This document shows, in pieces, positions 20,059-22,409 of a DNA stretch of 64,000 nucleotides (position 1 is the first letter of the stretch; the number at the start of each line of letters is the position of its first letter). Where the stretch lies: contig NZ_JABEMG010000002.1 in assembly GCF_013004695.1 (NCBI RefSeq), positions 1-64,000 of the forward strand, given 5' to 3'. The notes below the pieces were generated by a model. It was given only the letters and a program-made list of their open reading frames with translations. It did no database searches and was not told the origin of the DNA. A program made the position numbers and the translations under genes. The stretch comes from Promicromonospora citrea (lineage in GTDB: Bacteria; Actinomycetota; Actinomycetes; Actinomycetales; Cellulomonadaceae).

Positions 20059-21210
20059 TCAGATCCAGCGCTTCCACCGGAACACGCCGAACAGACCCAC
20101 GCTGACGGCCAGCATCGCGACCAGGGCCGCCGGGTAGCCGTAGGACCACGCGAGCTCCGGCATGACGTCGAAGTTCATGCCGTAGACCGTGCCCACCAGC
20201 GTCGGTGCGAAGAGGATCGCGGCCCAGCCGGAGATCTTCTTCACCTCCTCGCCCTGGCGGATGCTGACCTCGGAGAGGTGCTTCATCTCCTCGTTCTGCC
20301 GCTGCGCGACGAGGGTCGCGGCCACCGTGAGGATGTCCCGCAGCGCGGCGCGGAAGACCTCGATCCGGTCGGCGACCTCGATGAGGTGGTCGGCGACGTC
20401 GCGCAGGTAGGCCTGCAGCTCGGGGTCGACGTCGTACTTGTCGGCGCCCTTGGCCAGCGACGCGCAGACCTTCTGCTCGGGGCGCACCGCGCGCTGGAAG
20501 TCGATGACCTCGCGGGACAGCTCGTAGATGCGGCGCGAGACGTCGGGGGCGCCGCCCCACACGTCGGCCTCGATCTCGTCGATGTCGTGGTCCAGCCCGG
20601 CCACGACCGGCGCGTACCCGTCCACGACGCTGTCGAGGATGGCGTACAGCACGGCCTCGGGGCCGCGGGCCAGCATCTCCCGGTCGTTCTCGAGGCGGGC
20701 GCGCACCGCCGCGAGGTCGGGCGAGGCGCCGTGCCGCACCGTCACCACGAAGTCGGGGCCGACGAAGACGTGCAGCTCGCCGAACTCGACCTGCTCGACC
20801 GCGTCGAGGTAGCGCGCGGCGCGCAGCACGACGAACAGGGTGTCGCCGTACCGCTCGATCTTGGGGCGCTGCTGCGCCTGGATGGCGTCCTCGATGGCGA
20901 GGGGGTGCAGGTCGAACTCGCGCGCGAGCGAGGTGAGCTCGGTCTCGTGCGGCCGCTCGAGGCCGATCCAGGCCATGCCGCCGGGCCGCGAGCGCAGCGC
21001 GCTGAACGTCTCGGCGAGGTTGTCGTACCGGTCGGTGAGCACGCCGTCGTCGTAGATCGCGGCGGCGACGACCGACGAGCGCGGCTCGGGCTCGGCGGCG
21101 GGGCCCTGGGGGGCGACGTCGGGCGGCGTGCCCGGGGCGCGGCGCGGGCGCAGTGCGCCGAGGAGGGGACGCACGGGGCGTGCGGGACGCGAGGGCAGGA
21201 AGGTGGCCAT
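20059..21210 (-). CDS. corA: CorA magnesium/cobalt channel
   Basis: The 383-residue inner-membrane divalent cation channel has a large cytosolic N-terminal domain and two C-terminal helices. The selectivity-loop motif YGMNF lies at about residues 340-345, and the basic C-terminus is FRWKRWI. It is expected to import Mg2+ as a pentamer gated by cytosolic Mg2+. The ATG at 21210 is chosen because AGGAG stands 7 bases upstream; the frame is open further but begins with non-homologous residues. The message has a long leader of about 250 bases that carries a short peptide gene and GC-rich hairpins, suggesting Mg2+ or translation-coupled control. Confidence 0.92.
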   Translation of the reverse strand: MATFLPSRPARPVRPLLGALRPRRAPGTPPDVAPQGPAAEPEPRSSVVAAAIYDDGVLTDRYDNLAETFSALRSRPGGMAWIGLERPHETELTSLAREFDLHPLAIEDAIQAQQRPKIERYGDTLFVVLRAARYLDAVEQVEFGELHVFVGPDFVVTVRHGASPDLAAVRARLENDREMLARGPEAVLYAILDSVVDGYAPVVAGLDHDIDEIEADVWGGAPDVSRRIYELSREVIDFQRAVRPEQKVCASLAKGADKYDVDPELQAYLRDVADHLIEVADRIEVFRAALRDILTVAATLVAQRQNEEMKHLSEVSIRQGEEVKKISGWAAILFAPTLVGTVYGMNFDVMPELAWSYGYPAALVAMLAVSVGLFGVFRWKRWI

Positions 21211-21471
21211 GAGGGAGCTCCTGGGGTCGAGCGCAGGTGATGGACTGCGAACGGACACCGCAGCGGGGACGGCCGACCGGCCGGTGCGAGGTCGCGCCCC
21301 CTCTCGACGGAGGAGGGCGAGGCGCACCGGTGCGCGGGAACCCGCGGGGAGGCGGGAGGGGAACCGTCAGCTCAGCTGCGGTTCGGACTACTCGGAGGCT
21401 CGCTACGGGTCATGCGCGCCACCTCCTTCGTCCGTGCGGCGGGTCGCCGCTGCCGTTCTCCCGACGGGGCC
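21211..21471 (-). promoter_or_regulatory. structured corA leader
   Basis: A -10-like TAGACT lies at 21477-21472 on the minus strand, with a weak TTTCGA about 19 bases upstream. This predicts a leader of about 255 bases. It contains a 13-codon ORF with a strong Shine-Dalgarno, then a long pyrimidine-rich stretch and hairpins including CGCCCTC/GAGGGGGCG and GGCGCACCGGTGCGC. I see no match to the known M-box or ykoK aptamer. Confidence 0.55.
21372..21413 (-). CDS. 13-residue corA leader peptide
   Basis: ATG 21413 begins MTRSEPPSSPNRS and ends in TGA at 21372. AAGGAGGT lies about 6 bases upstream (21427-21420), one of the best ribosome-binding sites in the window, which argues for real translation. 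The peptide is rich in Pro, Ser and Glu/Arg. Proline-containing leader peptides control Mg2+ transporter genes in other bacteria (mgtL of Salmonella) through stalling or slow translation at low Mg2+. A similar role here is inference. Confidence 0.65.
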   Translation of the reverse strand: MTRSEPPSSPNRS

Positions 21472-21530
21472 AGTCTAGACCCGGGACCGGGTCGGATCGA
21501 AACCGTTCGAGAGCAGGATCACACCGGAGG

Positions 21531-22409
21531 TCACCACGCGTCGTGCGGCCGGTGGTGCACGCCGGGCGGCGTGTGGAAGTCGCCGGGCGTCGGTGCCAGG
21601 TAGGCCCGCGCGAACTGGAGCGACGCGGCCAGGTCGTCGCGCCGCTCTGCCGCCGTGCGCGCGGCGCGCGTGGAGATCTCCACGCAGACGTCGCCGCTCC
21701 AGCCCCGCGCCACGAGCTCGCGCAGCACCTTCTCCGCGTGCATGCTGCCGCGTCCTGGGACGAGGTGCTCGTCGCGCGCGCCGTTGTTGCCGTCGGCCAG
21801 GTGCACGTGCCGCAGGCGGTCGCCGAAGGTGTGCAGGAGCGCCACGGCGTCCTGCTGCGCGACGCTGGCGTGGGACAGGTCGAGCGTGACGGCGTCGTAG
21901 TCGTGCTCCGCGGGGTCCCAGCCGGGCAGGTAGGCCTGGAACTCGCGCTTGCCGCCGCGCCACGGGTACATGTTCTCGACGGCGATGGTGACGCCGGTGG
22001 ACTCACTGAGCGTGCGCACCTGGTCCTGGAACTGCCGTGCGTACTTGTACTGCCAGCGGAACGGCGGGTGCACCACGACGGTGCCCGCGCCGAGCTCGAG
22101 CGCCATGTCGGCGGTGCGCTCCAGCTTCGCGTCGGGCGAGCGGCCCCAGACCCGCTGGCTCACCAGGAGCGTCGGGGCGTGCACGGAGCGCACGGGCATG
22201 CCGGTGTCGGCCGACAGCTTCGCGAGCGAGCGCGGGTTCTGGGTCACCTCCTCCGACCAGACCATGACCTCGACGCCGTCGTAGCCGAGCTCGGCGGCCG
22301 ACTCGAACGCGAGCGGCACACGGCGGGGGAAGACCGACGCCGTCGACAGGGTGACCCGCACCTCGGGGGCTGCGGGTCCGGCCGGGTCGGTCGGGATCGG
22401 TTCGGGCAT
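21531..22409 (-). CDS. sugar phosphate isomerase/epimerase-like TIM barrel
   Basis: The 292-residue xylose-isomerase-like TIM-barrel protein has strand motifs GYDGVEVMVW, AVENMYPW and HVHLADG, with the acidic and His residues that bind the metal in this superfamily. The substrate is not predictable. The start ATG 22409 has TAAGGT 7 bases upstream. An in-frame ATG 9 bases earlier is possible but would sit inside the promoter hexamer. It is adjacent to but separate from ptsI, on the same strand. Confidence 0.85.
   Translation of the reverse strand: MPEPIPTDPAGPAAPEVRVTLSTASVFPRRVPLAFESAAELGYDGVEVMVWSEEVTQNPRSLAKLSADTGMPVRSVHAPTLLVSQRVWGRSPDAKLERTADMALELGAGTVVVHPPFRWQYKYARQFQDQVRTLSESTGVTIAVENMYPWRGGKREFQAYLPGWDPAEHDYDAVTLDLSHASVAQQDAVALLHTFGDRLRHVHLADGNNGARDEHLVPGRGSMHAEKVLRELVARGWSGDVCVEISTRAARTAAERRDDLAASLQFARAYLAPTPGDFHTPPGVHHRPHDAW

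Follow-up and report, generated by a model that had tools for sequence, protein, structure and literature searches.

Short open reading frames (ORFs) that respond to Mg2+ are well known from the leaders of enterobacterial Mg2+ transporter genes. In Salmonella and E. coli, the very short ORFs mgtL, mgtP and mgtQ carry Pro and/or acidic codons and control mgtA and mgtC/mgtB through ribosome pausing or abortion (PMC8092293, PMC3641672). For example, Asp and Glu codons impede translation of mgtQ and raise mgtB (PMC8092293), and the Pro and acidic codons of mgtL are discussed in PMC11552253. Furthermore, the E. coli leader ORF corL controls corA with Rho, and its translation is inverse to corA (PMC11552253). 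In mycobacteria, the short peptide of uORF2 (Rv1805A) has a conserved Pro7, was reported to be of unknown function and was described as mycobacteria-specific; it is expressed at a high level, and a paralogue of it is independent of the M-box (PMC12810186). The M-box (ykoK) riboswitch (RF00380), which lies upstream of uORF2, also controls Mg2+ genes.

The window analysed here comprises 64,000 nucleotides of Promicromonospora citrea (contig NZ_JABEMG010000002.1, positions 1 to 64,000), and all features described below lie on its minus strand. A gene for a CorA-type Mg2+ transporter of 383 amino acids (corA, 20059..21210, ATG at 21210, stop at 20059; Pfam PF01544, E = 1.3e-62) is preceded by a 13-codon leader ORF, MTRSEPPSSPNRS (21372..21413, read from 21413 to 21372; DNA ATGACCCGTAGCGAGCCTCCGAGTAGTCCGAACCGCAGCTGA). 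Its Shine-Dalgarno (SD) sequence, AAGGAGGT, occupies 21421..21428, and just 5' of it stands a short GC hairpin, GCGGCG-ACC-CGCCGC (21436..21450), whose arms are retained and whose loop is variable in the genus alignment. The -10-like hexamer TAGACT (21472..21477) does not vary among the 13 members of the genus aligned; a sigma-70 scan did not match it and gave no canonical promoter match in the leader. Between the leader ORF and corA lies a C-rich spacer of 161 nt (21211..21371), which includes AGGAG (21218..21222), the SD sequence of corA, conserved in the genus. The initial annotation had proposed TAGACT, a short ORF with an SD sequence and a spacer of about 160 nt, and all of these are present within one or two bases of where it had placed them. 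A looser scan of both strands of the whole window (SD, start codon and P-x-Ser(AGT)) returned this ORF as its sole match. Pfam and NCBIfam gave zero matches for leader peptides of at least 20 amino acids, the 13-residue peptide of the window being below the length range of the tool.

As with mgtL and corL, a Mg2+ transporter gene is preceded at this locus by a 5' leader with a conserved short ORF that has an SD sequence and is predicted to be translated. Like mgtL, mgtP and mgtQ, the ORF contains Pro and/or acidic codons (E-P-P in most members), but the genes controlled and the peptides are different. We know of no invariant Ser(AGU) codon in mgtL, mgtP or mgtQ. As compared by description (PMC11552253), corL too is a short ORF within a corA leader that is long and structured, and it is subject to Rho-type control, which is suggested for the window; unlike the window ORF, it has a UUG start, a single conserved Pro and no AGU-centred core, and it is limited to enterobacteria. 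The window leader most likely works like mgtL and corL, but the descriptions of the two give no sign of a resemblance in peptide or leader sequence. On sequence grounds, it appears to represent, at this locus, a so far undescribed family that precedes several unrelated Mg2+-uptake genes across actinobacteria, and it is probably a built-in sensor adjusting magnesium uptake. The literature searched, which lay mostly outside subscription journals, contained no description of EPPSSP leaders. Such a family would give actinobacteria, including mycobacteria, a counterpart of the Mg2+-responsive leader ORFs of enterobacteria.

The conservation of the leader ORF is far above chance. From the SD sequence to just past the stop codon, the sequence is near-invariant in an alignment of 13 genomes of the genus, and the flanking DNA varies. 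A pattern search recovered the motif in 47 of 222 genomes of the window's family, as a single copy in each (here and below, counts of loci are plain and unweighted by phylogeny). The genera with the leader were Promicromonospora, Isoptericola, Myceligenerans, Krasilnikoviella, Xylanimonas, Xylanimicrobium, Puerhibacterium, Cellulomonas and Actinotalea, and all inspected family loci precede corA. Relatives clearly conserve both the short ORF and its SD sequence, as the initial annotation had expected of a genuine leader peptide. Among the leader ORFs compared, the SD core is GGAGG or a G-rich equivalent. The C-terminal residues are variable (NRS, SRS, SRD, SRG, RRG or CRG) and the second codon is absent from some family ORFs; the core RSEPPSSP hardly changes. 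The frame is preserved as well, with one genus (g10) gaining exactly one codon, GAT (AGT GAT AGT, giving EPPSDSR). The only frameshifted copy (locus L028, genome G075) has CCCCC in place of CCTCCC/CCCCCC, which turns RSEPPSSP into RSEPPVVP and lets the ORF run into corA; the frameshift stands beside a C run and may be a homopolymer sequencing error. In Actinotalea fermentans (L035, 210-2937), the gene order is an MgtE_N/CBS gene, a DUF1003 gene, the leader ORF MDGEPPSSPIR and corA, which places this corA leader inside a larger Mg2+ locus.

Conservation extends to the codons. Of 41 distinct leader ORFs that came from protein searches alone, 39 have Ser(AGT) directly after Pro-Pro, the two exceptions being one GGT (Gly) and the frameshifted copy; the Ser codon was thus AGT in 39 of the 39 distinct ORFs that keep Ser and the frame. 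The first Pro codon was CCT in 29 and CCC in 12 and never CCG or CCA (CCY in 41/41). In the window, these positions belong to the core codons GAG CCT CCG AGT AGT CCG (E-P-P-S-S-P, 21384..21401). By comparison, AGT accounts for 1.8% of Ser codons across 36 long window ORFs, and CCT and CCG for 2.8% and 57% of Pro codons, respectively. In 654 kb of other sequence, read on both strands, AGT occurred in 2 of 47 P-x-S mini-ORFs. The constancy of AGT and CCY against this usage shows constraint on the codon, beyond the residue. The initial annotation had described a Pro/Ser-rich peptide and had suggested aligning relatives for codon bias; the short Pro/Ser ORF is real and its Ser codon is itself conserved, but what defines it is a Pro-Pro-Ser(AGU) core rather than general richness. 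This raises the question of why the rare serine codon AGU persists in lineages that otherwise avoid it.

The same core occurs in other lineages and before other Mg2+ genes. Scanning about 85,000 species genomes for an SD sequence followed by GARCCNCCNAGTAGTCC gave 42 stretches. Apart from the window's family, they included three Klenkia species with a GTG start, RSEPPSSPEVPA, a final Ala or Val and a stop codon upstream of corA, and three metagenome-assembled genomes (MAGs) from other actinobacterial lineages with MPGEPPSSP, MQPGEPPSSP and MRRGEPPSSP. In those three MAGs, the gene behind the leader encodes an MgtE_N+CBS-type protein, not corA, and in two of them (L145 and L153) a gene for an Nramp-type transporter comes next. 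The three nearest MgtE_N homologues, found by protein search alone, also have a leader ORF with a good SD sequence (MTGDIPHSPSR, MKSGEPPSTYR and MPASEPPSTR). Furthermore, searching 198 genomes of the class with the corA protein, which is blind to codons, yielded leaders in several families (MRSEPPSHA, MSSEPPSYA, MTRSEPPSPA, MRSEPPGH, MSGEPPSRRP, MRGEPPSTRLL, MRGEPPSRAP and M[SG]QPPST[NPG]). In this class set, the leader ORF was found at 20 of 37 corA orthologue loci and is missing from the others, including most of one family (f21), whose paralogous CorA genes have forms such as MDRSRPCSTTRSSGR instead. L145 is an Acidimicrobiia MAG, and of 247 genomes of its class it alone has the motif; in that class, the exact EPPSSP form is thus a rarity. 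A phylum scan allowing one mismatch gave three further matches, all due to chance judging by context, and the extra-family matches of a degenerate-pattern scan of the order resembled chance, as judged from the matched letters. At one corA homologue of another family (f12, L071), a divergent leader, MTGDPVSHRCVPDPSRDVG (D-P-V-S(AGT)), lies approximately 128 nt upstream.

The leader also carries structure at the end of the ORF. A stop-codon hairpin, GAACCG-CAGCTGAGCTGA-CGGTTC (21361..21384), has its 5' arm in codons 10-12, the stop codon in its loop and its 3' arm right after the stop. Own arms were fully paired at 27 of 37 distinct family loci, as against 5.7% for swapped arms and 1 of 37 for a control stretch, and the arm variants covary (GAACCG/CGGTTC, GAGCCG/CGGCTC and CCGCCG/CGGCGG). 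It was not seen in Klenkia or in most other families checked. Of the roughly 160 nt of hairpin-forming leader claimed in the initial annotation, covariation clearly backs this hairpin, within the window's family only; no other hairpin has clear covariation. The leader fold is only modestly stronger than that of shuffled sequences (z = -1.98), and no intrinsic terminator was found in it. A known riboswitch was rejected as its identity, with zero Rfam matches at E<=5 (21150-21560), M-box RF00380 included. A loop-E-like hairpin from the first fold (GGAC-GAA-GGAGG...CCTCC-GAGTA-GTCC) was considered as the general cause of AGTAGTCC conservation and fitted the genus only; it was rejected because sister genera keep AGTAGTCC yet lose GGAC and GAA. 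Self-sequestration of the SD sequence by CCTCC fits as GGGGG/CCCCC in two genera, but not in others, where GGAGG faces CCCCC. The distance from leader ORF to transporter gene is mostly 70-215 nt. In the window, this spacer has a C fraction of 0.46-0.47 and a G fraction of 0.30 (C-G +0.167), compared with a mean C-G of +0.011 (sd 0.059) for 21 other gene upstreams; in relatives, C exceeds G at 72 of 73 loci, with means of 0.44 for C and 0.31 for G. This composition suggests a Rho loading (rut-like) region, for which 21211..21371 is the candidate.

Given that the core also stands before other Mg2+-transport genes, the ORF is most naturally read as a Mg2+-linked cis-regulatory leader, and the strong SD sequence, the kept frame, the rare codons and a slow-elongation core before Mg2+ importers point to leader translation that reports Mg2+. 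We lean towards the view that the ORF is a translated cis-regulatory element, which would report elongation at low Mg2+ and set the expression of the downstream transporter. With ample Mg2+, ribosomes would load at the strong SD sequence, traverse the [D/E]-P-P-S(AGU) core and arrive at the stop codon; the stop-codon hairpin would be melted and the C-rich spacer left bare and untranslated, and transcription would often be terminated before corA, probably via Rho. At low Mg2+, a slow Pro-Pro bond after an acidic residue and the weak G-U decoding of AGU might cause pausing or early drop-off. An alternative leader fold, with the stop-codon hairpin and downstream pairing, could then form and let RNA polymerase reach corA. 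The geometry would permit this, as the 5' arm of the hairpin would lie under a ribosome whose P site holds Ser8 or Ser9, an earlier abort would let the hairpin form, and a terminating ribosome would leave the spacer bare. By analogy with corL and mgtQ, we think that low Mg2+ raises corA through such pausing or abortion; that the ORF is translated in vivo, that it depends on Mg2+, that Rho acts and which way the switch turns are what we infer here. The confinement of the stop-codon hairpin to one family and the several corA orthologues that have no leader ORF count against this mechanism. Moreover, the acidic residue is not universal, with QPPS in one family (f105), R-P-C-S in another (f21) and K-P-H-S or R-P-H-S in mgtE leaders. 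Acid-driven ribosome destabilisation, as initially suggested, therefore cannot be the common denominator, and Pro with AGU comes nearer to it.

Part of this evidence could also be claimed by an RNA element, such as a protein-binding site, a trans-pairing site or a small aptamer, with a reading frame that is incidental or secondary. The nucleotides of AGTAGTCC and AGTGATAGTCGC are conserved past the protein level, one locus (L237) has AGTGATAGTCGC without E-P-P, one hairpin covaries, and the GGAGG of the SD sequence is partly complementary to CCTCC. Nevertheless, we consider this unlikely, since the SD sequence and the start codon are spaced for translation, insertions are of whole codons (GAT in g10) with a single frameshift (L028), and Arg, Glu and Pro codons vary synonymously; the GGAC/GTCC and SD/CCTCC pairings are lost outside the genus, and Rfam is without a match. 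The conservation of rare codons, beyond residues alone, tells against a functional small peptide, for example a transporter regulator or subunit, as suggested for Rv1805A (PMC12810186). Conserved N-terminal residues would suit such a peptide, as would the high expression and the M-box-independent paralogue of its mycobacterial homologue (PMC12810186), but the products run to about 8-30 residues, their C termini are not conserved and their partners are structurally unrelated transporters (CorA, MgtE_N+Nramp), which makes it quite improbable.

The codons themselves, Pro-Pro with CCY first and a rare Ser codon, would also be expected if the ORF sensed tRNA state, that is, the charging of Pro/Ser tRNAs or m1G37 of tRNAPro made by the Mg2+-dependent TrmD, rather than Mg2+ on the ribosome. 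TrmD and m1G37 tie Mg2+ to Pro codons in enterobacteria. The leader offers just one to three codons of this kind and has no intrinsic terminator, and its partners are Mg2+ genes instead of Pro/Ser biosynthesis genes, so that we see only a slim chance of such attenuation; its TrmD version would still amount to Mg2+ sensing and overlaps with the explanation that we favour. Mini-ORFs that enhance translation or protect mRNA with no sensing are common, and the strong SD sequence and leader position would fit one, but it is hardly credible here, as the spacer is too long for simple coupling, the rare codons are conserved at the codon level and the downstream genes are linked to Mg2+.

The preferred reading of leader translation as a report on Mg2+ may extend to the mycobacterial uORF2. 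Behind the M-boxes of mycobacterium-like genomes (family f22) come the SD sequence GAGGAGGTGAG and ORFs like M/V-S-P-G-D-S-P or M-S-S-S-D-S-P. D-S(AGT)-P was found in 9 of 9 mycobacterial uORFs, the window equivalent being S-S(AGT)-P, and the conserved Pro7 of Rv1805A is the Pro right after AGT. One f22 copy of the M-box is followed by a PE-family gene. In another family (L285/L234), the order is an M-box, MSPGHSPRLS and a corA orthologue, and intermediates toward EPPSSP comprise S-D-S-R (L237), H-S-P and EPPSDSR (g10). Both uORF2 and the window ORF are very short, with a strong SD sequence, an x-S(AGT)-P core and a place at a Mg2+ gene, in a Mg2+-controlled operon in the case of uORF2, whereas the M-box upstream of uORF2 is an element of another kind, with no RF00380 match in the window. 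Sharing a short core, SD sequence, position and gene context, the two may form one family, with peptides too short to prove common descent; this would offer a testable explanation for uORF2. A bolder version, which we regard as possible but rather doubtful, is a phylum-wide codon-specific sensor in which ribosomes would gauge Mg2+ at Pro-x-Ser(AGU) or x-Ser(AGU)-Pro, with G-U-decoded AGU, not serine, as the sensitive step. One ancient leader ORF would then have been recruited to CorA, to MgtE/Nramp and to the M-box PE/PPE operon of mycobacteria, in which uORF2/Rv1805A would act as a second, translational sensor.

Other elements were observed upstream of mgtE homologues in the phylum. An M-box precedes some of them (L184, L186, L187 and L193), as well as one corA orthologue (L285). 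Some distant homologues have K-P-H-S or R-P-H-S mini-ORFs, and in another actinobacterial lineage a second distinct, conserved mini-ORF with an SD sequence and Pro-His-Ser(AGT) precedes mgtE (e.g., MKPRPHSR, MKPKPRPHSS and MKVRKSKPHSM, each ending at a stop codon). It occurs at eleven loci (L191, L194, L195, L197, L198, L200, L201, L202, L204, L206 and L207), and no M-box was found at the four scanned (L194, L197, L198 and L204). Two loci (L193 and L196) have the mini-ORF MRPFSQ, with P-F-S(AGT), close to the mgtE start. At three more (L203, L209 and L210), a different possible leader ORF (e.g., beginning MNENDNPDKRIGISGTE or MTDSDLSNKRIGSVE) is followed, close to the mgtE start, by a hairpin and a T-run, which by eye resembles a transcription attenuator. 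Finally, the Nramp-type transporters paired with an MgtE_N/CBS protein at L153 (3718-5040) and L182 (2799-4070) have ANAGND where canonical Nramp has DPGN, and may thus carry Mg2+ rather than Mn2+.
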